Positions 22,701-61,834 of a DNA stretch of 64,000 bases are shown piece by piece. The stretch lies in NCBI GenBank assembly GCA_032622095.1, contig CP136067.1, positions 129,039,990-129,103,989 of the forward strand, written 5' to 3'. The position numbers and the translations under genes were made by a program. The notes under the pieces were generated by a model, which had not been told where the DNA came from, ran no database searches, and was given only the letters and a program-made list of their open reading frames with translations. Source of the DNA: Siphonodentalium dalli. Lineage: Eukaryota > Mollusca > Scaphopoda > Gadilida > Siphonodentaliidae. The number at the start of each line of letters is the position of its first letter. Position 1 is the first letter of the stretch.

Positions 22701-23445
22701 GGAGTGCTCCATATATAGAGGGAGTCTCGGGTACCATACAAACCTCAAGGGATGGAGTGCTCCATATATAGAGGGAGTCTAGGGTACCATACAAACCTCA
22801 AGGGATGGAGTGCTCCATATATAGAGGGAGCATCGGGTACCATACAAACATCAAGGGATGGAGTGCTCCATATATAGAGGGAGTCTCGGGTACCATACAA
22901 ACCTCAAGGGATGGAGTGCTCCATATATAGAGGGAGTCTCGGGTACCATACAAACCTCAAGGGATGGAGTGCTCCATATATAGAGGGAGCCTAGGGTACC
23001 ATACAAACCTCAAGGGATGGAGTGCTCCATATATAGAGGGAGCATCGGGTACCATACAAACCTCAAGGGATGGAGTGCTCCATATATAGGGGAGTATCGG
23101 ATACCATACAAACATCAAGGGATGGAGTGCACCATATATAGAGGGAGCCTAGGGTACCATACAAACCTCAAGGGATGGAGTGCACCATATATAGAGGGAG
23201 CCTAGGGTACCATACAAACCTCAAGGGATGGAGTGCACCATATATAGAGGGAGCCTAGGGTACCATACAAACCTCAAGGGATGGAGTGCACCATATATAG
23301 AGGGAGCCTAGGGTACCATACAAACCTCAAGGGATGGAGTGCACCATATATAGAGGGAGCCTAGGGTACCATACAAACCTCAAGGGATGGAGTGCACCAT
23401 ATATAGAGGGAGCCTAGGGTACCATACAAACATCAAGGGATGGAG
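19265..23445. repeat. 2066-bp tandem segmental duplication inside the satellite
   Basis: The variant order from about 19265 recurs from about 21331 at an offset of 2066 bp (39 units minus 1 bp). Check points agree: 19305/21371, 19681/21747, 20418/22484 (a rare GGGTTGG unit) and 20951/23017 (a 52-bp unit). No difference was seen at the places I compared. Confidence 0.92.
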
Positions 23446-24361
23446 TGCACCATATATAGGGGGAGTCTCGGGTACCATACAAACCTCAAGGGATGGAGTG
23501 CACCATATATAGAGGGAGCCTAGGGTACCATACAAACCTCAAGGGATGGAGTGCTCCATATATAGAGGGAGTCTAGGGTACCATACAAACCTCAAGGGAT
23601 GGAGTGCACCATATATAGAGGGAGCCTAGGGTACCATACAAACCTCAAGGGATGGAGTGCACCATATATAGAGGGAGCCTAGGGTACCATACAAACATCA
23701 AGGGATGGAGTGCTCCATATATAGGGGGAGTCTCGGGTACCATACAAACATCAAGGGATGGAGTGCACCATATATAGAGGGAGCCTAGGGTACCATACAA
23801 ACATCAAGGGATGGAGTGCACCATATATAGGGGAGTCTCGGGTACCATACAAACCTCAAGGGATGGAGTGCACCATATATAGAGGGAGCCTAGGGTACCA
23901 TACAAACATCAAGGGATGGAGTGCTCCATATATAGAGGGAGTCTCGGGTACCATACAAACCTCAAGGGATGGAGTGCACCATATATAGGGGGAGTCTCGG
24001 GTACCATACAAACCTCAAGGGATGGAGTGCACCATATATAGAGGGAGCCTAGGGTACCATACAAACCTCAAGGGATGGAGTGCACCATATATAGAGGGAG
24101 CCTAGGGTACCATACAAACCTCAAGGGATGGAGTGCTCCATATATAGAGGGAGCCTAGGGTACCATACAAACCTCAAGGGATGGAGTGCTCCATATATAG
24201 AGGGAGCCTAGGGTACCATACAAACCTCAAGGGATGGAGTGCACCATATATAGAGGGAGCCTAGGGTACCATACAAACATCAAGGGATGGAGTGCTCCAT
24301 ATATAGGGGGAGTATCGGATACCATACAAACATCAAGGGATGGAGTGCACCATATATAGAG

Positions 24362-24930
24362 GGAGCCTAGGGTACCATACAAACCTCAAGGGATGGATTG
24401 CTCCATATATAGAGGGAGCCTAGGGTACCATACAAACATCAAGGGATGGAGTGCTCCATATATAGAGGGAGCCTAGGGTACCATACAAACCTCAAGGGAT
24501 GGAGTGCTCCATATATAGAGGGAGCCTAGGGTACCATACAAACCTCAAGGGATGGAGTGCTCCATATATAGAGGGAGTCTAGGGTACCATACAAACCTCA
24601 AGGGATGGAGTGCTCCATATATAGAGGGAGCATCGGGTACCATACAAACCTCAAGGGATGGAGTGCTCCATATATAGGGGGAGTCTCGGGTACCATACAA
24701 ACATCAAGGGATGGAGTGCTCCATATATAGAGGGAGCCTAGGGTACCATACAAACCTCAAGGGATGGATTGCTCCATATATAGAGGGAGCCTAGGGTACC
24801 ATACAAACATCAAGGGATGGAGTGCTCCATATATAGAGGGAGCCTAGGGTACCATACAAACCTCAAGGGATGGAGTGCTCCATATATAGAGGGAGCCTAG
24901 GGTACCATACAAACCTCAAGGGATGGAGTG
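24362..24930. repeat. 371-bp (7-unit) duplication marked by a private variant
   Basis: The rare variant GGATGGATTG occurs at 24391 and again at 24762, 7 x 53 bp apart, with matching neighbours. The shared private mutation supports duplication rather than chance. Confidence 0.8.
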
Positions 24931-27900
24931 CTCCATATATAGAGGGAGCCTAGGGTACCATACAAACCTCAAGGGATGGAGTGCTCCATATATAGAGGGA
25001 GCCTAGGGTACCATACAAACCTCAAGGGATGGAGTGCTCCATATATAGGGGGAGTATCGGGTACCATACAAACCTCAAGGGATGGAGTGCACCATATATA
25101 GAGGGAGCCTAGGGTACCATACAAACCTCAAGGGATGGAGTGCTCCATATATAGAGGGAGTCTCGGGTACCATACAAACCTCAAGGGATGGAGTGCTCCA
25201 TATATAGGGGGAGTATCGGGTACCATACAAACCTCAAGGGATGGAGTGCACCATATATAGAGGGAGCCTAGGGTACCATACAAACCTCAAGGGATGGAGT
25301 GCTCCATATATAGAGGGAGTCTCGGGTACCATACAAACCTCAAGGGATGGAGTGCTCCATATATAGGGGGAGTATCGGGTACCATACAAACCTCAAGGGA
25401 TGGAGTGCACCATATATAGAGGGAGCCTAGGGTACCATACAAACCTCAAGGGATGGAGTGCACCATATATAGAGGGAGCCTAGGGTACCATACAAACCTC
25501 AAGGGATGGAGTGCTCCATATATAGAGGGAGTCTAGGGTACCATACAAACCTCAAGGGATGGAGTGCTCCATATATAGAGGGAGCCTAGGGTACCATACA
25601 AACCTCAAGGGATGGAGTGCACCATATATAGGGGGAGTATCGGATACCATACAAACCTCAAGGGATGGAGTGCTCCATATATAGAGGGAGCCTAGGGTAC
25701 CATACAAACCTCAAGGGATGGAGTGCTCCATATATAGAGGGAGCCTAGGGTACCATACAAACCTCAAGGGATGGAGTGCTCCATATATAGAGGGAGCATC
25801 GGGTACCATACAAACCTCAAGGGATGGAGTGCTCCATATATAGAGGGAGCCTAGGGTACCATACAAACCTCAAGGGATGGAGTGCTCCATATATAGAGGG
25901 AGCCTAGGGTACCATACAAACCTCAAGGGATGGAGTGCTCCATATATAGGGGGAGTCTCGGGTACCATACAAACCTCAAGGGATGGAGTGCTCCATATAT
26001 AGGGGGAGTCTCGGGTACCATACAAACCTCAAGGGATGGAGTGCTCCATATATAGAGGGAGCCTAGGGTACCATACAAACCTCAATGGATGGAGTGCTCC
26101 ATATATAGAGGGAGCCTAGGGTACCATACAAACATCAAGGGATGGAGTGCTCCATATATAGAGGGAGTCTCGGGTACCATACAAACCTCAAGGGATGGAG
26201 TGCTCCATATATAGGGGGAGTATCGGGTACCATACAAACCTCAAGGGATGGAGTGCTCCATATATAGGGGGAGTCTCGGGTACCATACAAACCTCAAGGG
26301 ATGGAGTGCTCCATATATAGAGGGAGCCTAGGGTACCATACAAACCTCAAGGGATGGAGTGCTCCATATATAGAGGGAGCCTAGGGTACCATACAAACAT
26401 CAAGGGATGGAGTGCTCCATATATAGGGGGAGTATCGGATACCATACAAACCTCAAGGGATGGAGTGCTCCATATATAGAGGGAGCCTAGGGTACCATAC
26501 AAACCTCAAGGGATGGAGTGCTCCATATATAGAGGGAGCCTAGGGTACCATACAAACCTCAAGGGATGGAGTGCTCCATATATAGAGGGAGTCTAGGGTA
26601 CCATACAAACCTCAAGGGATGGAGTGCTCCATATATAGGGGGAGTATCGGATACCATACAAACCTCAAGGGATGGAGTGCTCCATATATAGGGGGAGTAT
26701 CGGGTACCATACAAACCTCAAGGGATGGAGTGCACCATATATAGGGGGAGTCTAGGGTACCATACAAACCTCAAGGGATGGAGTGCTCCATATATAGAGG
26801 GAGCCTAGGGTACCATACAAACCTCAAGGGATGGAGTGCTCCATATATAGAGGGAGCCTAGGGTACCATACAAACATCAAGGGATGGAGTGCTCCATATA
26901 TAGGGGGAGTATCGGATACCATACAAACATCAAGGGATGGAGTGCTCCATATATAGGGGAGTATCGGATACCATACAAACCTCAAGGGATGGAGTGCTCC
27001 ATATATAGAGGGAGTCTCGGGTACCATACAAACCTCAAGGGATGGAGTGCTCCATATATAGAGGGAGTCTCGGGTACCATACAAACCTCAAGGGATGGAG
27101 TGCTCCATATATAGAGGGAGTCTCGGGTACCATACAAACCTCAAGGGATGGAGTGCTCCATATATAGAGGGAGTCTCGGGTACCATACAAACCTCAAGGG
27201 ATGGAGTGCTCCATATATAGAGGGAGTATCGGATACCATACAAACCTCAAGGGATGGAGTGCTCCATATATAGGGGGAGTATCGGGTACCATACAAACCT
27301 CAAGGGATGGAGTGCTCCATATATAGAGGGAGTCTCGGGTACCATACAAACCTCAAGGGATGGAGTGCTCCATATATAGGGGGAGTCTCGGGTACCATAC
27401 AAACATCAAGGGATGGAGTGCTCCATATATAGAGGGAGTCTCGGGTACCATACAAACCTCAAGGGATGGAGTGCTCCATATATAGAGGGAGCCTAGGGTA
27501 CCATACAAACCTCAAGGGATGGAGTGCTCCATATATAGAGGGAGCCTAGGGTACCATACAAACCTCAAGGGATGGAGTGCTCCATATATAGGGGGAGTCT
27601 CGGGTACCATACAAACATCAAGGGATGGAGTGCTCCATATATAGAGGGAGCCTAGGGTACCATACAAACCTCAAGGGATGGAGTGCTCCATATATAGAGG
27701 GAGCCTAGGGTACCATACAAACCTCAAGGGATGGAGTGCTCCATATATAGAGGGAGCCTAGGGTACCATACAAACCTCAAGGGATGGAGTGCTCCATATA
27801 TAGAGGGAGCCTAGGGTACCATACAAACCTCAAGGGATGGAGTGCACCATATATAGAGGGAGCCTAGGGTACCATACAAACCTCAAGGGATGGAGTGCTC

Positions 27901-30900
27901 CATATATAGAGGGAGCCTAGGGTACCATACAAACCTCAAGGGATGGAGTGCTCCATATATAGAGGGAGCCTAGGGTACCATACAAACCTCAAGGGATGGA
28001 GTGCACCATATATAGAGGGAGCCTAGGGTACCATACAAACCTCAAGGGATGGAGTGCTCCATATATAGAGGGAGCCTAGGGTACCATACAAACCTCAAGG
28101 GATGGAGTGCTCCATATATAGAGGGAGTCTAGGGTACCATACAAACATCAAGGGATGGAGTGCTCCATATATAGGGGGAGTATCGGGTACCATACAAACC
28201 TCAAGGGATGGAGTGCTCCATATATAGAGGGAGCCTAGGGTACCATACAAACCTCAAGGGATGGAGTGCTCCATATATAGAGGGAGTCTCGGGTACCATA
28301 CAAACATCAAGGGATGGAGTGCTCCATATATAGAGGGAGCCTAGGGTACCATACAAACCTCAAGGGATGGAGTGCTCCATATATAGAGGGAGTCTCGGGT
28401 ACCATACAAACCTCAAGGGATGGAGTGCTCCATATATAGAGGGAGTCTAGGGTACCATACAAACCTCAAGGGATGGAGTGCTCCATATATAGGGGGAGTC
28501 TCGGGTACCATACAAACCTCAAGGGATGGAGTGCTCCATATATAGAGGGAGTCTAGGGTACCATACAAACCTCAAGGGATGGAGTGCTCCATATATAGAG
28601 GGAGTCTCGGGTACCATACAAACCTCAAGGGATGGAGTGCACCATATATAGGGGGAGTCTCGGGTACCATACAAACCTCAAGGGATGGAGTGCTCCATAT
28701 ATAGGGGGAGTATCGGATACCATACAAACATCAAGGGATGGAGAGCACCATATATAGAGGGAGCCTACGGTACCATACAAACCTCAAGGGATGGAGTGCT
28801 CCATATATAGAGGGAGCCTAGGGTACCATACAAACCTCAAGGGATGGAGTGCTCCATATATAGAGGGAGCCTAGGGTACCATACAAACCTCAAGGGATGG
28901 AGTGCTCCATATATAGAGGGAGCCTAGGGTACCATACAAACCTCAAGGGATGGAGTGCTCCATATATAGAGGGAGCCTAGGGTACCATACAAACCTCAAG
29001 GGATGGAGTGCTCCATATATAGAGGGAGCCTCGGGTACCATACAAACATCAAGGGATGGAGTGCTCCATATATAGAGGGAGCCTAGGGTACCATACAAAC
29101 CTCAAGGGATGGAGTGCTCCATATATAGAGGGAGCATCGGGTACCATACAAACCTCAAGGGATGGAGTGCTCCATATATAGAGGGAGCCTAGGGTACCAT
29201 ACAAACCTCAAGGGATGGAGTGCACCATATATAGAGGGAGCCTAGGGTACCATACAAACCTCAAGGGATGGAGTGCTCCATATATAGAGGGAGCCTAGGG
29301 TACCATACAAACATCAAGGGATGGAGTGCTCCATATATAGGGGGAGTATCGGATACCATACAAACATCAAGGGATGGAGTGCACCATATATAGAGGGAGC
29401 ATCGGGTACCATACAAACCTCAAGGGATGGAGTGCTCCATATATAGGGGGAGTATCGGATACCATACAAACATCAAGGGATGGAGTGCTCCATATATAGA
29501 GGGAGCCTAGGGTACCATACAAACATCAAGGGATGGAGTGCACCATATATAGGGGGAGTCTCGGGTACCATACAAACATCAAGGGATGGAGTGCTCCATT
29601 TATAGAGGGAGCCTAGGGTACCATACAAACCTCAAGGGATGGAGTGCTCCATATATAGAGGGAGCCTAGGGTACCATACAAACCTCAAGGGATGGAGTGC
29701 TCCATATATAGAGGGAGCCTAGGGTACCATACAAACCTCAAGGGATGGAGTGCTCCATATATAGAGGGAGCCTAGGGTACCATACAAACCTCAAGGGATG
29801 GAGTGCTCCATATATAGAGGGAGCCTAGGGTACCATACAAACCTCAAGGGATGGAGTGCTCCATATATAGAGGGAGCCTAGGGTACCATACAAACCTCAA
29901 GGGATGGAGTGCTCCATATATAGGGGGAGTATCGGATACCATACAAACCTCAAGGGATGGAGTGCTCCATATATAGAGGGAGCCTAGGGTACCATACAAA
30001 CCTCAAGGGATGGAGTGCTCCATATATAGAGGGAGCCTAGGGTACCATACAAACCTCAAGGGATGGAGTGCTCCATATATAGGGGGAGTATCGGATACCA
30101 TACAAACCTCAAGGGATGGAGTGCTCCATATATAGAGGGAGCCTAGGGTACCATACAAACCTCAAGGGATGGAGTGCTCCATATATAGAGGGAGCCTAGG
30201 GTACCATACAAACCTCAAGGGATGGAGTGCTCCATATATAGAGGGAGCCTAGGGTACCATACAAACCTCAAGGGATGGAGTGCTCCATATATAGGGGGAG
30301 TATCGGATACCATACAAACCTCAAGGGATGGAGTGCTCCATATAGAGGGAGCCTAGGGTACCATACAAACCTCAAGGGATGGAGTGCTCCATATATAGAG
30401 GGAGCCTAGGGTACCATACAAACCTCAAGGGATGGAGTGCTCCATATATAGAGGGAGCCTAGGGTACCATACAAACCTCAAGGGATGGAGTGCTCCATAT
30501 ATAGAGGGAGCCTAGGGTACCATACAAACCTCAAGGGATGGAGTGCTCCATATATAGGGGGAGTATCGGATACCATACAAACCTCAAGGGATGGAGTGCT
30601 CCATATATAGAGGGAGCCTAGGGTACCATACAAACCTCAAGGGATGGAGTGCTCCATATATAGAGGGAGCCTAGGGTACCATACAAACCTCAAGGGATGG
30701 AGTGCTCCATATATAGAGGGAGCCTAGGGTACCATACAAACCTCAAGGGATGGAGTGCTCCATATATAGGGGGAGTATCGGATACCATACAAACCTCAAG
30801 GGATGGAGTGCTCCATATATAGAGGGAGCCTAGGGTACCATACAAACCTCAAGGGATGGAGTGCTCCATATATAGGGGGAGCCTAGGGTACCATACAAAC

Positions 30901-31479
30901 CTCAAGGGATGGAGTGCTCCATATATAGAGGGAGCCTCGGGTACCATACAAACCTCAAGGGATGGAGTGCTCCATATATAGAGGGAGCCTCGGGTACCAT
31001 ACAAACCTCAAGGGATGGAGTGCTCCATATATAGAGGGAGCCTAGGGTACCATACAAACCTCAAGGGATGGAGTGCTCCATATATAGAGGGAGCCTAGGG
31101 TACCATACAAACCTCAAGGGATGGAGTGCTCCATATATAGAGGGAGCCTAGGGTACCATACAAACCTCAAGGGATGGAGTGCTCCATATATAGAGGGAGC
31201 CTAGGGTACCATACAAACCTCAAGGGATGGAGTGCTCCATATATAGGGGGAGTATCGGATACCATACAAACCTCAAGGGATGGAGTGCTCCATATATAGA
31301 GGGAGCCTAGGGTACCATACAAACCTCAAGGGATGGAGTGCTCCATATATAGGGGGAGCCTAAGGTACCATACAAACCTCAAGGGATGGAGTGCTCCATA
31401 TATAGAGGGAGCCTAGGGTACCATACAAACCTCAAGGGATGGAGTGCTCCATATATAGGGGGAGCCTAGGGTACCATAC

Positions 31480-31870
31480 AAACCTCAAGGGGTGGAGTGC
31501 ACCATATATAGAGGGAGCCTAGGGTACCATACAAACCTCAAGGGGTGGAGTGCACCATATATAGAGGGAGCCTAGGGTACCATACAAACCTCAAGGGGTG
31601 GAGTGCTCCATATATAGAGGGAGCCTAGGGTACCATACAAACCTCAAGGGATGGAGTGCTCCATATATAGAGGGAGCCTAGGGTACCATACAAACCTCAA
31701 GGGATGGAGTGCTCCATATATAGGGGGAGCCTAGGGTACCATACAAACCTCAAGGGGTGGAGTGCACCATATATAGAGGGAGTCTCGGGTACCATACAAA
31801 CCTCAAGGGGTGGAGTGCACCATATATAGAGGGAGTCTCGGGTACCATACAAACCTCAAGGGATGGAGTG
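31480..31870. repeat. Edge subfamily of satellite units (AAGGGGTGG)
   Basis: Units near the right end carry CAAGGGGTGGAGTG in place of CAAGGGATGG, a form not noticed elsewhere in the array. Confidence 0.8.
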
Positions 31871-32075
31871 CTCCATATATAGGGGGAGCCTAGGGTACCA
31901 TACAAACCTCAAGGGATGGAGTGCACCATATATAGGGGGAGTATCGGATACCATACAAACCTCAAGGGATGGAGTGCTCCATATATAGAGGGAGCCTAGG
32001 GTACCATACAAACCTCAAGGGATGGAGTGCTCCATATATAGAGGGAGTCTCGGGTATATTTGTGGATGATTTATT

Positions 32076-33491
32076 TTAAAGGCCCACTTAATTTTCGAAC
32101 CCCAGATCACATTATATAAAATATATGCCATATTATATACCATTTGAAAGAGGAAGCTCCAAAACATTGTATTATCAACTTATCCGGTGTAATAAACTGT
32201 GGACATGTTGTTTTGTTGAGTTGCCAACGCGTTTTGTCATCTAGATTGCAGTAAAAAGCATAGAGTTCTTCCCCTTCCATTGAAAAAGTTTGAATTCCGT
32301 TGTATTCTGGGAGCCAAAGGGGGAAGTCATTCTATGATTTCAGCAGTTTTCTATTTCTCTGTGGGCATCTTCTGAGACACAGATGTTTCAAATAGTGATG
32401 AAGTATAGTATTTTAATCATATTTTATGGCATAGATTGTTATTAAAATATGCAATCAAAGTCGTTTTCGATGCATCTGTCGGCGTATAGAAGTGTCGGAT
32501 GCCGAATTACATACTGTATAATTTCGCGAAGCGAAATTATACAAAGTATGTAGTTCGGCATCCGACACTTCTATAATCTATACGCCGACAGATGCATCGA
32601 AAACGACGTTGATTGCTTATAATTACGACAATCCGCATATTAGTTGGTGATTAAACAAGTTCTTTTTAAAGAAACTATATTAAAAACACTAAAATAGTAA
32701 AAATACCCAAGTGATATTTGTGTCTGGACTCAGCTGCTCTTTTAACCGAAATGGGAAATTGGGTCGAGAATAAATTGGGCGACCGACCGGAAGTTAGAGA
32801 TGAACCCACACAATTCGATCGCTGTTTCCGACATTCCAACTACACAAAAGCAAGAGACCACACCCGTAAACTATTAAACTGTACTTGCTGATGTAAATTT
32901 CACTTATTTAAAACGATTCTAGAACATGTATTGTCATAAAGGCAGTCCGATTCGATAGCGATTCCGAAGCGGTGTTCTCAAATTTCGCCACCGAATTTGT
33001 GGTCTCCGGCGACTCGAAAAGTAAACAGTCGCTACAAAGGTGCATTCTATGCTCTCATGACCACTGCCATGTCATATTATTATTGGCACGAAGCTGGATA
33101 AATGCTAATACTAATGGTGGAATAGTTATGTAATACATTCTTTTATCCCCAAATAAATTAATGTACTATTTTGCTGTTTAATCGGCGATAATTTTTCGCT
33201 GATATTTGGCGTCTTGCGTTACCACTAGAAACGGAAGTGATTTCTTGCGATTTGATTGGTGGACAAAATAAAATTCCGGGTAAATTCGCCCCATGGATAT
33301 TCGACTTGGTTTGCGAACTTTTTAAGGTATCACAACCCCCAGTGATGCGGGAAACGACACTTCCCTCCACTGATAGATATTGACCAATCAAATGCACGCA
33401 TTTTAGTCAAAGCGAAAGTAGTTGTAATTATACGTACATCAAGTCACTATAAAACAATAATTGGCGACTCGAAAATTAAGTGGGCCTTTAA
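32076..33491. mobile_element. Family C element, 1.4-kb expanded copy
   Basis: The ends are TTAAAGGCCCACTTAATTTT and the mirror ending AAGTGGGCCTTTAA. The left ~370 bp and right ~45 bp match the 458-bp copy at 15042-15499 (reversed). About 990 bp between roughly 32449 and 33440 is extra and starts with a strong hairpin (32451-32616). No domain recognised in its frames. It starts 20 bp after the satellite ends. Confidence 0.85.
32451..32616. repeat. Hairpin, ~80-bp arms
   Basis: GCAATCAAAGTCGTTTTCGA is mirrored by TCGAAAACGACGTTGATTGC, with its centre at AATTTCGCGAAGCGAAATT. A few bases are inserted in the right arm (CTATAATCTATACG versus CGTATAG). Confidence 0.92.
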
Positions 33492-33600
33492 CTAATTATT
33501 GGAGATAACTTCAGTCACATATTACGGAAAACACAACAGCTGAAGCACGCAAAATGTAAATATCTAGGCGTTAACCCTTTACCCAACAGAAGGGCCCTGT

Positions 33601-33669
33601 GCCAATGCATTCTCTTATATATGCGAGTCGACCATAGGTCGCCTCGCATATATAAGAAAATGCATTGGC
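33601..33669. repeat. P69 palindrome, copy 6
   Basis: One change from the common form near the right tip (AAGAAAATGC in place of AAGAGAATGC). Confidence 0.92.
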
Positions 33670-33749
33670 TTAACACATTAAAAATTATAAAATTGTTAAA
33701 GAATGTAAGAAAAAATGGTAAAAAGTGTTAAAAAAAGATTTTTTTTTAG

Positions 33750-33818
33750 GCCAATGCATTCTCTTATATATGCGAGGCGACCTATGGTCGACTCGCATAT
33801 ATAAGAGAATGCATTGGC
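33750..33818. repeat. P69 palindrome, copy 7
   Basis: Same form and orientation as the copies at 6477 and 7473. Confidence 0.92.
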
Positions 33819-33970
33819 ACAGGGCTAACTGTAACTATCACAATGTGGTAAAGGAGCCGGTTCCAATGATATCCATATTTGTATGGTTCTATTGAAACAG
33901 ACCGAAGATATTTTAGGCTGTTGAAGCTTTATTTGGCCGGTTTTGGCCGGTTTGTTGGGTAAAGGGTTAA

Positions 33971-34670
33971 TTCACATGCAAATATGCAATGTGGGCGGGG
34001 GTGGGGTAGGACAAAAAGCCTAGCGAACAAAAAAGAATACAGATGATGGAATGAAAAAGAAAATATGGATATAGCTTAGCAAGTATTAAAAGGCGGAGAT
34101 GGGGAGGAGGAGGGCCAAAATCTTACTATCAATAAAAAGATGTCACCTTGAATTTCAACGCAATTGCGGATATGGTTGATGCTAAATATAGCTCCCACCT
34201 ACATTCGCACCTAACAGGAAGTAAAATACGATCAATTAATTTATGCCGGTCTCTGTTTGTTTACATTTAAAATGAAGAATTTTCTGTTGATAAAACCAAC
34301 TGAAGTGTGGTTTAATTGGTTATTTATCAAGAGCCCATATAGGATGTTATATTGACTATACTTGTAATGCGATATGATCACCTTTATTCCTAGCCACTAA
34401 TCATTAAACAGAAACATACATTGTGGGCACGATTGCGCCACCGATGATGCTGTGACACAGAATCACACACAACACAAACAACAAGAAACAGAGCCAAAAC
34501 AAGAGATTCAAACCGTGCGCAAACCGAAGGACCCCGGGGGGGACAAAAACATTTCCTAACAGACAGCACATCAGTCAGGAAACAAACCCAGGCAGCCCAG
34601 CAATGTGAAATCACAAGCCAGGAGCGAGTGATGGCTCTGCTACTACCGCGGGTGTTAAGGGTGGGCTCCT
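33971..34670. other. Non-coding stretch
   Basis: Nothing recognised. A 74-codon minus-strand frame (34390-34614) has no supporting signal. Confidence 0.4.
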
Positions 34671-36529
34671 AATAGTTGGGGAGCCCGCATATGTTCCATT
34701 TACACTTTTGCGTACAAAAGGTTTGACCCCCTAAAGTTGGTACCAATAATGGAACATTCTGAAAAACCGATTTCTTAAGTTGCGCATTCCTGGGGTTTAG
34801 GGGCCGCTGAACCCCAAAAAGTGCCAAAAGTCACTTCTATTTACACTTCCGCGTACATCGATGAATTTTGGTTTGATGATACTCCTAAGTGTACTGATAA
34901 AGAAAACACAACTTAAGAAAGGGATTTTCCTGGGTTTTTCAGATAAGAAAGGGGGTCCCATGCTGAACCCCAAAACGTGATTTTTCATTTTTTTTTTACA
35001 CTTTCGCGTACATCCATAATTTTTGGTCTCAAAGTACTTTGATATATAATAATTATAAAAACACAACTTAAGAAGCAACTTTTCCTGGGGTTTTAAGATA
35101 AGAAGGGGGTCATCGGGTCACCCCCCAAAACGTAAAAAATCACTTTTATTTACATGATTGCATTCGTCCAACGTGTGTGTATGTGCGTACACACCTGAAA
35201 CGTTGCACTATTACAACCAATACATCCCTAAATCGATACGATCAACTTAAGAAATATATATTCATGTCGTTTTCTGATAAGAACGAGACTTGTTACCCCC
35301 CCCCTAACCCGATCCATTTTCTAGAACTATAAGTGAGCCAGTTTTATGAAAATTATAGCGGAAAATCTAGTAAAATGTATACAAATGTATATATTTTCGT
35401 GAAGCTAAGACATAATGACACTTTTTTGGGCCAAAATTGAAACTCACCATCCAAGATGGCCACCAAAATGGCCGCCGGAAGTTGAAAATATGACATTTTT
35501 TCACAAATATCTTCTAGATCAATTCATGCTGTTTGGAACTGGTTGAGTACTGCAACTTTATTTTGTGTTTTGTATATTAACTGATCATTGGAGCAATTAA
35601 ATATGCAATTATTGGGGTCCAAACCCCTTCCGATCCCTCAAATATTCGATTGTACAGAATGCGGTATAAAATTTCACCAAACATTTCAATTGGGATTCTA
35701 TTCATATTTCAACAAGAAATGAACAGAACTTTGTAATATAAGTGAGGCATATCATTACCTATGAATATTCCAAATCACTGGAACCAAAATTCTTACTTTG
35801 GCTCAAAATGGCTGCCAATATGGCCGCCAAAATATGGAAAATGGTAAATATTACACCAGCATGTCTTGCAATCGCTTACAAGTTGTGTTGATGTATAAAA
35901 TGGGCTATTCTGCATTATATACATTGATACTAACATGTCTGGTGCACCATGGTTAAGTGTTACTATTTTCATCACTGACTTCGTCAAAAATATTGGACTT
36001 TTCTCTAAAAAACTTGACATAAATATTGGCAAAAATTCAGTTTTCAGGTTTGGACCATTTTTTTCTGGTAAAATATAACTATCTTTGGATTGAAAGGTGT
36101 TAATTGTTTTGGTCTATCTTAAATGTGTCACACTACAGTGTTTATAGATCAAATTGCTCAAGATGGCTTCCAAAATGTAAAATTCTAATTTTTTTCATAT
36201 ATCCCGAACATTCTCTGCATTATCCGAAAAGGTAGCAAATTGTGACTCACTTGGTTATTATACGTGTTAGTTAATTAACTGACAACTACATGTTCTATTC
36301 CCAGTTGTCCCAGTTCCGTATGGGGCATGACAAATTAATTTTAAAATATGTAATTTTGCCGAGAACCTCTTTTGTGATTTTGGCCACATTTATTGAAAGG
36401 AAATGGGCAGAACTTTGAGACAGAACTGAGATGGACCATAATCTTTGGCTATTCTGGTTCATTATGATAAAAAAAATGTCAACAGGATACAGTGTGGATG
36501 CCAAGATCGTAGCCAGGGAGTTACTCTGT
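34671..36529 (+). repeat. Giant foldback, left outer arm
   Basis: It contains about four degenerate modules of 135-180 bp. Each has AACTTAAGAA (34776 in mirror form, 34911, 35064, 35243), a TTTACACTTTCGCGTACATC-like segment and AACCCCAAAACGTGA. The stretch 35292-36138 is absent from the right arm. At 35450-36175 the motif CAAGATGGCC or AAAATGGC recurs several times. Confidence 0.8.
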
Positions 36530-36968
36530 GATCATATGTGAGGTGAATAGGTATACAGGGATTTATTGTATGTCATGACTGATGTGAGTAGGTATACAAT
36601 GAGTGACTATATGGTTATGAGTGGGTTGTCCATGGTAAGATTCATCTAGGTATACAGTGAGAGGTCATGGTCAGAAGTGAGGTGAATCGGTATGCATGGA
36701 GTGACTGTATGGTGTATGATTGTGTATATTCAGTACGGGTGCACCCGGTGCGCCTGTATGGTCATTGGTGTGGTGTATGGATATAGCTACATGGTCATCT
36801 ATGTGTTGATTATGTATATATGGAGTGACTGTAAGGTCATGGGTGGGATGTACATGCGTTGTCTGTATGATCATGGATGGGGTGTGTGGATAAATAGGTA
36901 GTGATTTTATGGTTACGGGTAATGTGTATAGGTATACATGGAATGACTGAATATGAATACCTGGAGTA
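36530..36968 (+). repeat. Left inner-arm minisatellite, proximal part (~43-bp unit)
   Basis: Highly degenerate tandem units based on GGTATACATGGAGTGACTAT and GGTCATGGGTGAGGTGTATA. It is interrupted by the hAT-like element and resumes at 38424. Confidence 0.75.
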
Positions 36969-36976
36969 AGCTGGGT

Positions 36977-38415
36977 CACGTAGGGCCCTGCGAATCGGGT
37001 ATTTTCGTTTCGAATCGAATCTCGAATCGAATCAGGCAAACGATTCGAAATCGAATCGAATCTCGAATCGAATCATTGTTACTGAGCCAATCAAGTTCTA
37101 ATACATAGAACTTCAAAGAAACACATACAATTGCCTGACGATCGTTGATGTAGTGAAATATTTGCAGATTATGTTTTTGTCTACACACCTCTATGCATTT
37201 TCTGTGCTAAGCAATTGTTGAATACAGATATAAAGAGCATACATGAATGAGAGAACCAATGTTGACGTACATCTGGAAAATCGTACCGCATGATGCCTGT
37301 TTCATTTTGTTGAATAGCGCAACATTTTTTCGCTACATGTACACTTGCGATGATTGTGTTGTCTGTCACTTGAACAGACAGACTTACAATGTTTACAAAA
37401 ATACTCAGGACAAAAGTTTGAAGATAAATTCTATAACGCGCGTAGTGCCGTCATACTTTATAGTAAATTTATCTTCAAACCTTTTGGTTATAACTCATAA
37501 CCTTAATCAAACCAAAATTATTTCTTATAATTTAATCCACCATTTCACAAGAGAACCACCATAATCACAAGAAGCGTAAAACTTTGAGATTATTGCCATC
37601 AAAAAGACGCACACAACAGTTGAAATTGATATGAGTGCAGGCAATCAAACATCAATTACCAGTGATCAAGTGGTGTCATGAATTCATCGCTTTTGATTGG
37701 CTAGTGAACAGTGTACACATTGATCAACTGATCGATTAACTGCCAGAGCAGGTGTTCCAGAAATATTTTGCATGTACTGTGACACGAGTTGTTAAGTTTC
37801 TAAAACTACATATCTTTGCAAATGTTAGCTTGATCGAGTCTTGTTGATTGTTCTAGGTACTTATGCACCTAAATACTGATGGGTAATGAGCAGTAAATGT
37901 AATGGCAAAGCAATACTAGCTGAAGGAATGTGTATGCAGCATCGGAATCCCCCTTTATATCGCAAAAAAGTATCGAATAGTGTCCGTGTACATTTTAGAC
38001 ACGCATTTTTTAGGCGTGGTCATTTGGCAGGATGCTGCTATGAGTGCTGTATTATCAATAGCAGAAGTAATCAAGAAATTTAGGTTATCGAGAAGTAACT
38101 TTAATGGCTAAATGTGTGACAACCAGTGGTTTTATAATATTCTGTGGAATGACCGCATATGATTAAATTATTTGGCGATAACATTGCATGTCCTGCCATC
38201 GGACATAACGGTATGTGCATACGTTTAAGACGTTTACTATGTTATTGTAGTAAATTTTCTTTTCTGATAAGATCATTGTGGCCAGTAGAAATCATGGAAA
38301 TGCACCTGTCACCAAAGATTCGACGAACACCGAATCATGGTAGCCGATTTCGAATCGAATCGAATCAGACAAACGATTCCGAATAGCATCGAATCGAATA
38401 GATTCGCAGGGCCCT
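36977..38415. mobile_element. hAT-like non-autonomous element, 1.44 kb
   Basis: The inverted ends share AGGGCCCTGCGAATC (left 36982, right mirror ending 38415). They lie inside an 8-bp direct repeat AGCTGGGT (36969-36976 and 38416-38423); the left end carries 4-5 extra bases (CACGT). An 8-bp duplication with such a tip is typical of the hAT superfamily. Subterminal repeats of TCGAATCGAATC occur at both ends, as hAT transposase-binding regions often show. No transposase frame was recognised (the largest is 105 codons at 37247-37564). The mirrored site in the right foldback arm has only one copy of the target. Confidence 0.8.
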
Positions 38416-38423
38416 AGCTGGGT

Positions 38424-39661
38424 GGACATTATCGAGCGTGTGGGTACATAGGGAGTGTCCTTGTGGTAACGGGTGGGATGTATATTTATATATCTCGTGG
38501 ATGTATTATCATTGGTGGGTGTATATGGCTTAGCTGTATTATCATGGATGGCGTGTATGATTATACAGTGAATTGATGAATTGTCATGTGTGAGGTGTAT
38601 ATGCAAGTATGGATGGTTTGATTGGTCGTATGTGTGGGTTTTTGTATAGCTGGAAGGGCTAAATGGCCATTAGTGAGGTTTACATGTATACCTGGAGTGA
38701 AATTATGGTCTAGGGAGGGCTGCATATGTATATCGAGTGGTTATATGACTATGAGTGTCGAATAGGTATACAGGTAGTGACCGTATGATTAATGGTGAGA
38801 TGATTACATGTAGGTATACAAGTAGTAGTAGTAGTAGTAGTGACTGTATGATCATAAATGTAATGAACAACTATACATGGGGTGACAGGCGTATGAGTAT
38901 ACATGTACCTGATGTTCCTGTTTGGTGACCCGTGTCGGTATCGTCATGTGTAGGTTATACCAGTACACACACGTGTTGCTTTATTGTCATGGGCGAGGGA
39001 TATGTGTAAATAGCGAGTGGCTACATGACCATGGATAAGGTGCATATATGCATACATGGAGTGACTATACTGTAACTGACATGGCTATGGTGTATTAGTA
39101 TATCTTGAGTGGCTATTCGGCTATGGTGTGACAAATAGGGATACAGGGATTGACATGGCCAATGTTGAGGTGAATATGTATACAAGGATTGACCATGATC
39201 ATGTACGAATGTTTTGAATAGGTACACACGGGGTGACTATATGGCCATAGGTCAGGTAAAGGAGTATACCAGGTAACACGGGTGAGGGTATGTGTATGAA
39301 GCGAGTGGCTATATGGCCATTGATGATGTGCATATGTATACCGGAGTGACTTTATGGTCATTGTTGTGGTGTTGATGTATATATTGATTGTATATTTGAC
39401 CATGCGTTTGGAGAATAGGTACACAGGGATGATGACCTTATGGCCAATGGTGAGATGAATGGATATACTAGGAGTGACTATATGGTTATGGGTCATGTTT
39501 AGGAGTATACCCGGTGTGCCTGCATTGTGACGCGTGGCTGTGTGGTCATCCGTGGTCATGGGTCAGGTGTACATGTATACAGTGGGTCACTATATGGTTA
39601 TGTCTGTGGTGTTTATGTATATATGCAATGACTGTGATAATGGGTGGCTATCGCTTTCCAC
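38424..39661 (+). repeat. Left inner-arm minisatellite, distal part
   Basis: Continuation of the ~43-bp degenerate array up to the central loop. It includes a small (GTA)n run near 38821-38841. Units such as ATATTTATATAT and TATCATGGATGGCGTG are mirrored in order at 40180-40250. Confidence 0.75.
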
Positions 39662-39722
39662 GATATGCCATGACCTATCTATTGATTAACATATCCTTGA
39701 GTTATTGTGGAAAGCGATAGCC
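39646..39722. repeat. Axis of the giant foldback (stem and 45-nt loop)
   Basis: GGCTATCGCTTTCCAC (39646-39661) pairs with GTGGAAAGCGATAGCC (39707-39722). The loop holds no recognised motif. Confidence 0.92.
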
Positions 39723-40350
39723 GCCCAATGTACACATGTACAACCCACCCATTACCCCAGTCACTCCATATGTACATAAACACCACACAAATGACAATAC
39801 AGTCACCCACTTTATACACGTACATGTACTAGTACACCTGATCATACAGCCATACTTAGTTATACCCGTACATACCACAAATGACGATACATCCACGAGT
39901 CACCATGCATGAACACCAGGTATACACCTACACATGACCATATAGTCACTATATGTATACATATTCACTACATTCACGATCATACGGTCACTCATTGTAT
40001 ACATATTCACCTCACCATGGACCATACAGCCACTACATGTATACCTATTCGCCATACACATGACCATATAGTCAATCCAGGTATACATATGCACATCACC
40101 AATGGTGATCCCTTCCAGATATACCAATATCCGCACATACGACCACTCATAAGTTCCATACTTGCCATACTCACACACGCCATCCATGATAATAAATCTA
40201 CTCCCCATACACCACCAATGATAACACATCCACAACATATATAAATATACGTCCCACCGTTACCAACAGGGCACTCCCTTTATACCCACACATCATTCAT
40301 GACCACACAATAACTCCGTGTATACCTATTATCCTCATCTATGATCATAG
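39707..40350 (-). repeat. Right inner-arm minisatellite
   Basis: The same ~43-bp degenerate units in reverse complement (for example GACCATATAGTCACTATATG). At about 640 bp it is far shorter than the left counterpart (~1680 bp). Confidence 0.8.
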
Positions 40351-41170
40351 AGTATTAAACTCCCTGGCTGCCATATTGGCTTCCACCCTGTATCCAGTTG
40401 ATAAATTTGTATCATAATGGGCCAGAATACCCACATATCATGGTTCATCTCAGTTCCGTCTCAAAGTTCTGCCCTTTCCCTTTCAATAATATGGCCAGAA
40501 TCACAAAAGAGGTTCTCCGCAAAATTCCATACTGCAACTTTAAAATGAATTTGTCATGCCCCATACGGAACTGGGACAAACATAATAGGACGTAGTTGTC
40601 GGTTAATTACATTGTAACTAACACGTACAATAACCAAGTGAGTCACAATTTGCCACGTTTTTTTCGGATAATGCAGAGACTAATGTTCGGGTTATGTTAA
40701 CTTTTAACTTTTTACAAATTTAGTTGCCATTTTGGAAGCCATCTTGAGCAATTTAGTCTATAAACAAGTCTCGTTCTTATCATAAAACGACATGAATATA
40801 TATTTCTTAAGTTGAAGGTATCGATTTAGGGATGTATTGGTTGTAATAGTGCAATGTTCCAGGGGTGTACGCACATACACACACGTTGGACGAATGAAAT
40901 CACGTAAATAAAAGTGATTTTTTACGTTTTGAGGGGTGACCCAATGACCCCCTTCTTATCTTAAAACACCAGGAAAAGTTGCTTCTTAAGTTGTGTTTTT
41001 ATAATTAGTATATATCAAAGTACTTTGAGACCAAAAATTATGGATGTACGCGAAAGTATAAACAAAGGTGAAAAATCACGTTTTGGGGTTCAGCATGGGA
41101 CCCCCTTTCTTATCTGAAAACCCCAGGAAAATCCCTTTCTTAAGTTGTGTTTTCTTAATCAGTACACTTA
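40351..41170 (-). repeat. Giant foldback, right outer arm, inner segment
   Basis: Reverse complement of 34880-35292 and 36138-36520 (for example AAAGTTCTGCCCTTTCC mirrors GGAAATGGGCAGAACTTT). It joins directly across the ~850 bp present only in the left arm, with a 4-nt TGTT shared at the two break points. Confidence 0.85.
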
Positions 41171-42317
41171 CCCTTGGAACAAACGTCGCACTACCGACGA
41201 ATCTAATTCAATTAGAATTAGACTCGAGTTTAATTCATAATTCGTCTGTTGAAACAAACGTCGCATTTAATTCAAGACGAATCTAAATGATTTCTTAAAA
41301 TGGCATAAAGCGTTCATAAGGGTTTTCGTCAAAACGGCTAAAATAGGAAGTTTTATATCAATTCTAAAACGTAAAATTTAGTGAGAAAATGTGGCTTTTG
41401 ACTTCCAAGCGACGAAATTAATGTTACTATTATGAGGAGTGGAAATTGTTGGTTTTATATCGCTATTTCGTAGGTATTGTAGGTCGGACATGATTCTTTA
41501 GGTGGTATTTTGCTTTGAACTTGTCTGAAAGAAATCAGGTCCAGTTTATTTTTATACGAAAACGTTGTACCGTTTTAACAATTTAATAGCAAGTTGAGGT
41601 CAACGCGCTATATCACTATATATTTCGTCAGTATGCCTATCTAAAACCACGTGGTAAAATAACCATGGCGGGCAGGGACGTACGGCTATAGGGTCTCGGT
41701 TGGGGGGGGGGGGGGGGTAATAAATTTGCGTAATTCAATTTGCACCCCCTTGGCTGTTCCTTCACATGCCTGGATAACAGCCTATTCTGAATGGATTAGT
41801 AGATTTGTGATCATTCACTGGGAGGACCATGGTTCTGCCAGTAGAAGAAAAATCAGAGATCTGAACCTGAAAATCCGATCATAGTTTGGCACAGCGGGAG
41901 AAAACTTTGAACATGAAAACCGCAAAAACCTATATAGCATTAGACTGGCCTCGAGCTTTCCAAGTGCTGACAATTTCCAACCTGAAACCCCCACGAAGGT
42001 TGGAAAATTTCCAACTGATGACCATTTAAGTTCATAATTTTGAACGGAAGCATAGGAAAATAATTAGCAGTTTTTTGGCTGGCCACGGGGGTCATGAGGG
42101 ACCAGGACACAGACCATTTCAGTCAAAATGTTGGACCAAAAGTAGGAAAATGTGCAAATGTTGGTCTAAAAACAACAAATTCCCCAATAATTCATTGCTG
42201 GAAAATCAAATTACAAGAACAATTTCAACCCATCGTTGATGTTAAATTTGCATACGTCCATGTACAGTGTAGCGTGTATATCCAAACGGAATAAATATTT
42301 ATTTAGTGCGTCTGCCA

Positions 42318-42360
42318 GGGGGGGGGGGGGGGGGTCTGGAAAAAAATTGCACATATAGGG
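42318..42360 (+). repeat. Poly-G repeat family copy
   Basis: A 17-nt G run in the context GCCA-G17-TCTGGAAAAAAATT, then CACATATAGGGCCC. The inverted relative is at 44430-44461. Confidence 0.85.
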
Positions 42361-42625
42361 CCCAAAAAGTTTTTTTCCGACTTCGAGGGACCCACCACCC
42401 CATTTTTGCAAAAACATATTTTTTTCCTCCAACATTTTGGGGACCCACCCCCGGGGACCCACCCCCCGTTTCTCATGTTTTTATCAAAATTTCAGAGGTT
42501 TTTTTAGCCGTTCTTCAATAACTGTGTTAACTGCCTTGCTAATTGGTAAACACAGATCAGAAAAACGAAATATACAGTATTTCCATGTGTTTCCTGGTGT
42601 TTTCAGTATCTAACAACAATATTAA

Positions 42626-43113
42626 TTAAAGGTACTCAATCCGTAAAGAGGGTCCCCATCTCAACAGATTCCAACAACAACAATCCGATCAGAGGGTCCT
42701 ATATTACTATTTCTTTGGCTTTGGGGGTAAAAAAATATTTGATTCGAGTCGAGGAACCCATCAAACAAAGCTCAGAGTTATTAGATATTGATTTTTGAAA
42801 TTTGTTAAATTCTCGAGATGAGTACTAATAATTGCCGTCAAGTTTGAAACCTGCTCGAGATGATTACACCAAAACTCTATTCAAACAGACAAGGATGGAT
42901 AACTCTAAAATCAAGTGGTAATAATCACGCAATTTTGACTACGTACTGGGCCAGAAAGAATTCCCGATAATGAAAAATAATAGATTTCTAAAATCGATAT
43001 CTAACAAATCTGAGCTTTGATGGGTGAATTCCTCGACTCGAATCAAATATTTTTGACCCAGAAGCCATTGAAATAGTAATTGAGATGAGTTTTATCGGAT
43101 TGAGTACCTTTAA
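42626..43113. mobile_element. Family B element, complete copy, 488 bp (nested)
   Basis: The termini TTAAAGGTACTCAATCCG and CGGATTGAGTACCTTTAA bound long imperfect inverted arms (TTGATTCGAGTCGAGGAACC mirrored by GAATTCCTCGACTCGAATCAAA). It sits inside the 41171-44796 transposon. No coding capacity. Confidence 0.85.
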
Positions 43114-43384
43114 GCATTGTGTAGGTACACTATATGTCACAAATTGCCCTAGACCCCATTATAGCCTTAATATATCGAGTGTGTCTGACAGAGAACACTG
43201 GCCAGTGTAAATAGTGGTAAACAGGTCAGGGGTTCCACAATTATATGTGCATGATCAAAGAACTCTTTAGTCTTATCCAACGGGATGGGAAGGGGAATTG
43301 TTTTATGGTTATGTATACACATAGATATATGGTTATTATACTGCCCGATATTAGTCGGTGGGTATATAGTTGACGTCTCGAGCC

Positions 43385-43645
43385 GTCTGTCCGTACAAAC
43401 ATTTTTTTGAATTTTAACTCAAGAGTCAGTTGTCATATTTGATGCCCTATGGCATGGTGACGGACCAGAAATGGGGGGACGAATATGCATAATATCGCGG
43501 GTTGTGACCACCAATGCCTACCAGAGTTATGGGCCCTGTTCGACTTTATGAAATTCAGTCCATACAAAGTTTTTGCAATATAAGTTAAGTGTCGGTTGTC
43601 AAATTTTGATGTGGTTTGGTATGGTGATAGACCAGAATGAAGAAT
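43385..43645. repeat. Diverged tandem pair, ~165-bp spacing
   Basis: GTCCGTACAAACATTTTTTTGA, split as GTCCGTACAAAC plus a T run, recurs as GTCCATACAAAGTTTTTGCA. GTTGTCATATTTGATG is followed by GTTGTCAAATTTTGATG, and GGCATGGTGACGGACCAG by GGTATGGTGATAGACCAG. Confidence 0.7.
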
Positions 43646-44429
43646 TGAATGTCATTTCTCAATGCATCTGAATGCATCACATTATTTCAGTTCATCTATT
43701 TGTAAGTGATAACAGTATACAATTCGTATTTTAGTTTCGTCTTTTTGAGCAGTAAAGCTCCCAGATGAAGTTCGGAAATTCAATGAGAATAGCGTCACCT
43801 TCATATGGGATTGTCTGAGCAGTAAACAGTAATGTCATTCATCATAACCAATTCAGTTTTATTTGGATAATTGTTGCAAATGAACATTACTGGTAATCAT
43901 TCAAGATGAGAAATAACCAGAAGGAATGAATTTGATTACATGCCAGAACAAGACAGTATTTCAGACATTAGAAATTTATGAGATACCCTTTTCAATTTCA
44001 TGTCACTTTAAGCAACAATCAGGTTAATGATATCTACTAGTAGTCATCATTGAGTATTCACCATGTAGTATCCAATTTGTGATAGAGTTTTTTTGTTTTA
44101 TTACTTGTATACAGATAATACAACTGGGTAATATATTAATTTTGTTACTAAATATTTCTTCCGTTGATCATAAGTTTCCTGAACGTTAATACGGTGGTCC
44201 ACTGTGAAGTTGTCCGGGACACTGTGAAATCCAGAATGTTGCTAAATCTGAGGCTAAAGAGTCACTTTAGCTGCCTGTATAGCCCTATACCAACAAGCAT
44301 GGTACTAACATGCTTAAATACAACATTACATGGTCAGTACTTGTAAATTGTTTGAAAAAAACCCATATTGGAAAAAAATTACAAGCACCATTTTTTCCGC
44401 CTCTGGACCACCCACCCACCCCGGCCCTA

Positions 44430-44470
44430 TATATGGAATTTTTTTTGCAGACCCCCCCCCCTGCGTCTAC
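44430..44470 (-). repeat. Poly-G repeat family, inverted copy
   Basis: CCGGCCCTATATATGGAATT, a T run, GCAGA, ten Cs, then CTGCGTC. Read on the minus strand it matches the 42318 copy. Confidence 0.8.
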
Positions 44471-44796
44471 TCGCATTTAATTTGAAACAATTCAAATACC
44501 ACCAAATTACGCCATGCTCGTTGGTGTTTTCCAGTTTGAATTGGAATTCCCTCATTAGCATATCATTATGCAGCTCGTTTGCATGTCTCCGAATTGAATT
44601 CGAGTCGACGGTGATGCGACGTTTGTTTCAAACACGGATCTCAGACGCATCAGCAATTAAATTCGTGTTGACCACACGCATTCTTCGTCGGTAGTGCGTC
44701 TAATCGCATTTATTTGCAACAAACGTCGCACTACCGACGAATCTAATTCAAATAATTGAATTCGATTCGTCGGTAGTGCGACGTTTGTTCCAAGGG

Positions 44797-45013
44797 TTAG
44801 GAGTATCATCAAACCAAAATTCATCGATGTACGCGGAAGTGTAAATAGAAGTGATATTTGGAACTTTTTGGGGTTCAGCGGCCCCTAAACCCCAGGAATG
44901 CGCAACTTAAGAAATCGGTTTTTCAGAATGTTCCATTATTGGTACCAACTTTAGGGGGTCAAACCTTTTGTACGCAAAAGTGTAAATAGAACATACGCGG
45001 GCTCCCTAACTAT
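44797..45013 (-). repeat. Giant foldback, right outer arm, terminal segment
   Basis: Reverse complement of 34671-34875, for example GGGGGTCAAACCTTTTGTAC mirrored at about 34711-34730. Ends with GGGCTCCCTAACTAT. Confidence 0.9.
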
Positions 45014-45059
45014 AATGTAATTCTGAAACGCATCAGACTTCCACATGCCCATACGTCGG

Positions 45060-51222: not shown

Positions 51223-51532
51223 GACCCTGGTGTCTACATAACATGCTTCACATGACACATCTGTTGTGTTGTGATCGTTGAAACCTGCGCTAATCATATT
51301 ATGTCACCAGGGCCAATTTAAAAGTTAGCAATGTCTCATATAATATTTAGTGTACTGGAGATAATGTAATAATGTAGGAAATTGAAACGACAGAGAGACT
51401 GAGAGAGTGCGAGACAGAATTTCAATATGATTCGATTGTTTTCGAGATAATAACTCAGTGTGCAAAATAGTGTTTCTGCTTTTAACCCTATGCACGTATG
51501 CTGATTTTTTTCCTTTCGACCCTTGAAATTTG

Positions 51533-51784
51533 GCCGTATTACCACTTGATTTTAGAGTTATCCATCTTAATCCGCAATTTTGTCCGAGACTGTCGGTTTG
51601 ACGACATTTTTCTGGGCCACAAATAATCGAAAACATTTCGAGAAATAACAAATTTCAACAATCGATATCTGATCACTCTGAGCTTTGGTCGGTGGGTGCC
51701 TTGACTCGAATCAAATATATTTTTTACCCCCGAAGCCAAAGAAATAGTAATTTGGGAGCGTTAATTCGGATTATCCATCTTTAA
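51533..51784. mobile_element. Family B element, partial copy
   Basis: It carries ACCACTTGATTTTAGAGTTATC, GAGCTTTGGTCGGTGGG and GAAGCCAAAGAAATAGTAAT in family order and a decayed right end (ATTCGGATTATCCATCTTTAA). The left half is missing. Confidence 0.75.
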
Positions 51785-51995
51785 GCTTAAAACCAAAAAA
51801 TTGTTAAAAGCTGCGAGATACGACACTTATTTTTAAACGATTATTCTCTCACTCACGATAAGGAGGAATCGGGCCCTTCAAAGTAATCAAATCAGTATTA
51901 GCCTACCAGGAACGGTTTCTAAAATAGAAATACGACATTTTAGAATACGATTTTCTCCGAATTCATACCCATGACATGTTATCTGAGGAACGCAT
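51785..51995. other. Short non-coding spacer
   Basis: Nothing recognised. Confidence 0.4.
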
Positions 51996-54845: not shown

Positions 54846-54852
54846 GATTTGT

Positions 54853-55754
54853 ATGGGGCGCCATCCCTGCAAATATTCGTTTTCGGAGATATCACCTCGT
54901 AATTCGGAGATATCTCCTCGGTTTCGAGGAGATATCTCCTTGAAATTGCAATTCCTAGCAGATATCTGCTTGGAATATGGTCCATTATGGAGATATCTCA
55001 TTGGATCCAAGGAGATATATGCTTGGATTATAGAGATATCTCCTTGGATCATAGGAGATATCTCCTCGCAACTACGAGATATCTGCTTGAAATATTTCCA
55101 ACGAGATATCTCCTTGAACCGAGGAGATATCTCCATAATCCAAGCAGATATCTGCTCGGATTATGGAGATATCTCATTGAAATAGTTTTCAACGAGATAT
55201 CTTCGTGGACCCAAGGAGATATCTCCATATTCCAAGCAGATATCTCCTTGAAAATATTCCAAGCAGATATCTGATTAAATTATGGAGATATCTCATTGGA
55301 AACCCGCGGCCATGAAATATTAATGATTTCTCCACAGTACATATATCTATGATCGAAATACATCCAAGCAGATATCTGCTCGGAATATGGAGATATCTCC
55401 TTGAAATATTTTTCAAGCAGATATCTCCATAATCCGAGCAGATATCAGCTTGAATCCAAGGAGATATCTCCTTTAACATATTTCAAGGAGATATCTCAAT
55501 AATGCGAGCAGATAGCTGCTCGGATCCAAGGAGATATCTCCTTGGATCCAAGCAGATATCTGCTCGCATTATGGAGATATCTCCTCGGTTTCAAGGAGAT
55601 ATCTCCTTGAAAATATTTCCGAGGAGATATCTCCATATTCCAAGCAGATACCTGCTTGAAACCGAGGAGATATCTCCATAATGCGAGCAGATATCTGCTT
55701 GGATCCAAGGAGATATTTTCGAAAAACGAATATTTGCAGGGATGGCGCCCCATA
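54853..55754. mobile_element. Foldback element filled with GATATC palindromes, 902 bp
   Basis: The ends ATGGGGCGCCATCCCTGCAA and the mirror TTGCAGGGATGGCGCCCCAT form inverted repeats of about 35 bp. GATTTGT lies directly outside both (54846-54852 and 55755-55761), a likely 7-8-bp target duplication. Between them are about 34 copies of a 12-bp palindrome, GGAGATATCTCC or GCAGATATCTGC and one-base variants, at an average pitch near 25 bp; about 30 contain GATATC. The linkers (TTGGATCCAAGG, ATTATGG, TTGAAATATTTC) are themselves partly symmetric. Frames on both strands are repeat artefacts. Confidence 0.9.
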
Positions 55755-61733: not shown

Positions 61734-61834
61734 GAGTTCGGTACAATGCTCACTATAAAAACGGCGGACGAAGCAAAAATGGTGAGCGTTTTCAACTTGA
61801 TAACCGCATGAAAACGATGATATGAGGGTATCAC

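Follow-up and report, generated by a model that had tools for sequence, protein, structure and literature searches.

A mobile foldback transposon family with 3-bp target-site duplications in Siphonodentalium dalli and probable exchange between its outer arms

The foldback element at the locus

The window analyzed here is a stretch of 64,000 nucleotides from the scaphopod Siphonodentalium dalli (assembly GCA_032622095.1, contig CP136067.1, positions 129,039,990 to 129,103,989, forward strand), and the subject of this study is the foldback element that occupies positions 34673-45012 of it, between TAA target-site duplications (TSDs) at 34670-34672 and 45013-45015. An initial annotation, made from the sequence alone, had drawn 34671-45013 as a 10-kb element, the whole of it one inverted repeat. 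The place was right, and inverted arms do lie there: in a self-comparison 34672-34888 matches 44797-45013 at 97.2% and 34886-35294 matches 40763-41170 at 95.4%, and the best inverted alignment within the interval reaches 649 bits, far above the chance level (at most 39.2 bits in 50 dinucleotide-preserving shuffles). Their continuity, however, is broken by the loss of ~0.83 kb from the right arm (arm positions 621 to ~1452, by comparison with intact copies) and by two later insertions, each with its own target duplications. A 3,626-bp element sits inside the right outer arm, with TTA duplicated at 41168-41170 and 44797-44799, and a 1,439-bp element sits inside the left minisatellite, with the 8 bp AGCTGGGT duplicated at 36969-36976 and 38416-38423. 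The size of 10 kb was inflated because it included both insertions; without them this copy has a net length of ~5.26 kb, whereas full-length members measure 6.09 kb. The parts of the window copy are as follows.

34670..34672: left target-site duplication, TAA
34673..35294, + strand: left outer arm, terminal sequence TAGTTGGGGAGCCCGC and four ~154-bp modules (~34673-34805, ~34806-34961, ~34962-35115 and ~35116-35293; internal bounds approximate)
35296..35304, + strand: poly-C tract closing the left outer arm, 9 C here (5-53 in the other listed copies)
35305..36514, + strand: left middle arm
36515..39645, + strand: left inner arm (outer bound approximate), degenerate 42-bp minisatellite split by the 1,439-bp insertion
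36977..38415: nested 1,439-bp insertion with duplication AGCTGGGT, foreign to the foldback
39646..39661, + strand: axis stem, left half
39662-39706: axis loop, 45 nt
39707..39722, - strand: axis stem, right half
39723..40370, - strand: right inner arm, minisatellite (outer bound approximate)
40370..40766, - strand: right middle arm, with ~0.83 kb lost between it and the outer arm
40763..41170, - strand: right outer arm, inner part
41171..44796: nested 3,626-bp insertion with terminal inverted repeat (TIR) CCCTTGGAACAAACGTCGCACTACCGACGAATC and duplication TTA, foreign to the foldback
44797..45012, - strand: right outer arm, terminal part, ending CGGGCTCCCTAACTA
45013..45015: right target-site duplication, TAA

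Six-frame translation of the 3,626-bp insertion gave no Pfam match at E<=1; an inverted repeat within it (42681-43123) has relatives at 12770-12980, 51525-51786 and 61483-61743. The 1,439-bp insertion is presumably hAT-like, a label that we take from the 8-bp length of its TSD.

Long, internally repetitive inverted arms form most of the element, which places it in the foldback structural class. The initial annotation had described two layers per arm, modules outside and a minisatellite inside; both layers are present, and a middle zone that it did not describe lies between them. From the outside inward, each arm thus has 620 bp made up of four ~154-bp modules, the middle zone, and a degenerate minisatellite that runs up to the axis, and in the consensus the left arm has 2,506 bp and the right arm 3,584 bp. 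The modules are marked by motifs that occur four times each, TTTACA at 27/168/322/476, GCGTAC at 38/179/333/512 and CTTAAG at 102/240/394/573, at identical positions in both arms, and two further motifs occur three times each. The 42-bp unit of the minisatellite is very degenerate (51-60% matches), with ~9 copies in the left arm and ~34 in the right. The axis, a 16-17-bp stem with a 45-nt loop, lies in the window exactly where it had been annotated, and its stem halves are exactly 45 nt apart in 18 of the 23 places where one half was found; most of the other five show a visible point change in the partner half. That the element has no visible gene was borne out: no Pfam family was hit at E<=1 in one full-length copy (six frames, stops read as X, without a positive control), and no stop-free run of the consensus exceeds 161 codons, the longest lying within the minisatellite.

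A dispersed family with 3-bp target-site duplications

The genome searched comprises 2.23 Gb in nine contigs, and the terminal 25-mer of the element occurs in it 228 times (112 + 116), against 0 for a backward control. Because only exact 25-mers were counted and some are unpaired, the figure of 228 counts perfect ends rather than elements and leaves out older copies. Among the first 100 of these end places, 80 form 40 inward-facing pairs less than 25 kb apart; the 20 unpaired ends may belong to truncated copies, to copies with a mutated partner end, or to copies whose partner lies beyond the first 100 places. Of the 40 pairs, 28 have a length of 5.9-6.15 kb and three of 5,455-5,462 bp, and the others range from 1,952 to 19,170 bp. 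The initial annotation had named beforehand two outcomes that would speak against a foldback family, namely ends confined to this locus and an inversion made by the assembly from a single arm. The 228 ends answer the first; the second is answered by the presence of inverted pairs at many different loci, so that the inversion in the window is not an assembly accident. It is likewise beyond serious doubt that the structure is mobile rather than a product of assembly or of a one-off chromosomal inversion, a proposal refuted by the recurrence of the same inverted build, with 3-bp TSDs, at locus after locus.

When the outer 620 bp served as query, 40 of 1354 initial candidates were scored. Every one of them matched, with 98% for the 39 other than the window. 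Twenty of these matches were retrieved, 14 with both ends inside, three cut by the retrieved stretch and three single-ended. A consensus of 11 copies is 6,090 bp long; eight of the 11 are 99.5-99.9% identical to it and the others 99.0, 96.6 and 95.7%, while an older 94% member retains 6,093 bp and the same ends. We conclude that this is a recently mobile, dispersed family that has been amplified in a recent burst. The terminal 24-mer was not found in viral contigs. A pattern search yielded 14 places where copies diverge beyond the module zone. L041 and L042, considered as a sister family with other ends, were rejected as such, being two copies of one segmental duplication: the two oppositely oriented stretches of 3 kb lie ~1.6 Mb from each other on C8, each include a foldback remnant and its flank, and are 98.8% identical, which points to a recent event. 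The two longest pairs are those of 15.9 kb on C2 and 19.2 kb on C3. In the C3 pair, the 7.0 kb of interior that was read does not resemble the consensus, and none of its stop-free stretches is longer than 126 codons.

The family has defined ends that read TAGTTAGGGAGCCC (also TAGTTAGGGAGCC and TAGTTAGGG; positions 1-11, TAGTTAGGGAG). Both flanks were read, to 8 bp, for 18 elements; 17 have a perfect 3-bp TSD, and none of the 18 a longer match at the lengths tested (4-6 bp). The 17 triplets are TAA/TTA in nine cases, TAT/ATA in five, and TTG, ACA and CCA in one each. Dispersed copies bounded by TSDs place the family among mobile foldbacks. One element of 1,952 bp (L032/L048) has little beyond both outer arms and an insertion, and yet it has the perfect CCA duplication, which suggests that the outer arms alone suffice for movement, although shrinkage after insertion would also fit.

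To which superfamily does such a family belong? TSDs are 8 bp long in hAT elements and 7-8 bp in the P superfamily, and Helitrons have neither TSDs nor TIRs. Because its TSD is 3 bp, the family belongs neither to Mutator, whose foldbacks have 8-10-bp TSDs, nor to the P superfamily of Galileo, nor to hAT; its TSDs and inverted ends contradict a Helitron. PIF/Harbinger elements make a 3-bp TSD with a preference for TWA, often TAA/TTA, and a 3-bp TSD is what 17 of the 18 elements have. A further rule for classification, used by Repbase, is a match of the terminal 11 bp to a classified family with one mismatch allowed (PMC4455052); the family may already have an entry there.

Since the element is gene-less and nevertheless has many near-identical copies, something else in the cell must move it. 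We consider it very likely that it is a non-autonomous, cut-and-paste foldback transposon, moved by a transposase that is encoded elsewhere and makes 3-bp TSDs, and that its outer arms correct each other.

Probable exchange between the outer arms

Arm-to-arm identity in the consensus is 598/600 in the outer zone, 88-97 per 100 columns to ~1300 and mostly 63-95 to 1900, and 43-63 per 100 columns in the aligned minisatellite. A question that arises from these figures is “Do the two arms correct each other?” We compared two-state sites between the consensus and four other elements, and between two of those elements. At positions 1-620 all patterned differences (2-6 per comparison) lie between elements and none between arms; at positions 621-1900 most lie between arms (58-103 per comparison, L010 excluded) and few between elements (0-5). 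In a permutation test on the outer zone of 14 elements (L014, with its badly gapped right arm, left out), the outer 600-bp arms of an element share 15 minor variants where 4.01 are expected, a value reached in 0 of 2000 permutations. At five sites of the outer zone a variant occurs in both arms of one element and nowhere else, and no site of this zone is arm-fixed, against 17 of 49 in the 660-1300 zone (13 elements, L018 left out for a deletion). At 1480-1780, where only 83 columns were usable, there is no shared signal. In addition, the right end of L011 carries the outer 977 bp of the left arm. Our conclusion is that the module zone exchanges sequence often in relation to subfamily splits, and that the parts deeper inside the arms seldom do.

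Could the match of the outer arms instead date from a recent replacement in the founder of the family, without continuing exchange? The near identity of the outer arms in the consensus would agree with this, as would the two sites that still separate the arms in the main subfamily, but we regard it as improbable: the five sites at which one element alone carries a variant, in both of its arms, require exchange after the split of the subfamilies, and the right end of L011 tells against it as well.

With the outer arms taken to correct each other, the mechanism that we envisage is the following. A helper transposase would bind, in trans, the repeated motifs within the four outer modules of each arm, would cut at the TAGT ends and would insert the element with a 3-bp stagger. 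During repair, either of the gap left by excision or of the folded arms, one outer arm might serve as template for the other, and the exchange of the outer 620 bp within an element, which the shared variants show in part, could occur by conversion or by template switching during foldback repair. Such exchange would keep both ends functional, while the middle arms would have drifted apart and the minisatellite core would be a spacer with little or no sequence constraint.

What sets the inner limit of exchange? The poly-C/poly-G tract at 621 may do so, a proposal that is weakened because the result in the middle zone is graded. Deletions also end at or beside arm position 621 in the window copy, L018, L032, L037 and L039. 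We treat this as a lead only, since the pattern that selected L032-L045 itself ended at that position, and since the deletions of L014 and L010 lie elsewhere, which weighs against the tract as a deletion end. L027, considered as a copy that lost an arm at the poly-G tract, was rejected because its other end stands 7.4 kb away, and is read as an insertion or rearrangement. More tentatively, we propose that the family may represent foldbacks of a superfamily with 3-bp TSDs whose outer arm corrects itself. The two inverted four-module end zones would convert each other, the poly-C/poly-G tract would brake repair synthesis at the inner edge of the outer arm, and both ends would stay alike and active as subfamilies succeed one another, with decay in the remainder of the arms.

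Several observations weigh against the interpretation as a helper-dependent element with mutually correcting arms. The border of exchange is graded and not absolute, since the 660-1300 zone retains a weak shared-variant signal (6 against 2.22 expected, 12/2000 permutations). The permutation of arms takes no account of relatedness among elements, and homogenization is incomplete, as most members of the main subfamily differ between their arms at two outer sites. The flanking triplets of a 15.9-kb pair on C2 are mismatched, the sole exception among the 18 elements, and TAA/TTA at nine of 17 TSDs is a loose fit to the TWA preference of PIF/Harbinger. Finally, no transposase could be linked to the family.

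The putative helper transposase, known foldbacks and other repeats

The gene-bearing relative with the same ends whose existence the initial annotation had raised was not found in a partial search with patterns on the first 14 or 21 bases, which misses partners that differ in the first 14. The first 14 bases with forced later divergence occur in two places (backward control, two), one a family member with an inserted base and the other without similarity, and the first 21 bases followed by a different base occur in one, again a family member; none is an autonomous partner. PIF/Harbinger, our leading guess for the source of the helper, is abundant in the genome, with at least 150 transposases over the cut-off among the matches listed, from 910 candidates. 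That the same element is moved by another superfamily with 3-bp duplications is nearly an even bet: only nine of the 17 TSDs are TAA/TTA, and none of the 56 PF13359 places on C1-C3 (of the 150 listed) lies closer than 31 kb to a listed end. Against it stand the wealth of PIF/Harbinger transposases and the consideration that non-autonomous copies may lie far from their helper.

The 15.9-kb C2 copy contains at least 8 kb of foreign sequence, which enters at consensus 3115 within the minisatellite. In a 4,005-bp tandem duplication (99.97%) within this block (L052:1-8001), two open reading frames (ORFs), of 603 and 461 codons, share a frame and are separated by a single stop; no Pfam family was found for ORF 1, and ORF 2 had only a sub-cut-off match with an E-value of 0.23. 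Is this the helper gene, and the copy a broken autonomous form? The block lies between two family ends, and at its visible border an A/T-rich triplet is followed by TAGT. We nevertheless think this most unlikely, for the block breaks the minisatellite as a nested insertion would, the triplets flanking the copy do not match, the border is readable on one side only, and neither ORF has a Pfam family above the cut-off. We read the block as a probable nested insertion, an unclassified coding element within a foldback copy.

Foldbacks are usually old and ragged, with few intact copies, so that their mobility and the matching of their arms are hard to study. The TU elements of sea urchin and FB of Drosophila resemble the family in the tandem repeats of their outer domains and differ in their 8-9-bp TSDs. 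Miniature inverted-repeat transposable elements (MITEs) of PIF/Harbinger have the 3-bp TSD, often TAA/TTA, but are short, whereas the element here has 6.09 kb and kilobase arms. Galileo of Drosophila (P superfamily), whose TSD is 7 bp, includes members with a P-type transposase, whereas the family here has a 3-bp TSD and no transposase found. Galileo is similar in its long, internally repetitive TIRs, which hold three transposase-binding sites, the nearest ~70 bp from the end (PMC3688188), in agreement with the module reading proposed here. Tetris of Drosophila virilis is also a non-autonomous foldback with domain-built repeat TIRs (flanking, outer and inner domains, ~220-bp repeats) for which no autonomous partner was found; it differs in its 8-10-bp TSD, its three structurally complete copies and its placement under Mutator (PMC4079207). 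Tm1 of Meloidogyne (Mutator/Foldback) has composite inverted arms of variable length and differs in its 9-bp TSDs and in the Mutator-like transposase present in its family (PMC3169594). The foldback families described in PMC4079207 and PMC3169594 have 8-10-bp TSDs, and a literature search limited to open-licence papers found no foldback with a 3-bp TSD. With a TSD of this length, the foldback architecture would no longer be confined to the superfamilies named in the papers compared, Mutator and P. Here many near-identical full-length copies with clean ends, together with older subfamilies, occur in one genome, and arm-to-arm exchange, deletion at the poly-G tract and target choice are directly measurable.

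Other repeats lie elsewhere in the window. A 15-kb array at 17063-32056 has ~283 copies of a 53-bp unit (95% matches); because an inverted pair flanks it (15104-15499 and 32076-32447, 77%), it may sit within a mobile element. A second inverted pair, 6174-6572 and 33570-33971 (94.8%), is internally palindromic in each member and represents a MITE-like family. A near-perfect palindrome of 217 bp (99.5%) occupies 8752-8968, and a palindrome-rich array around AGATATCTCC occupies 54852-55754.

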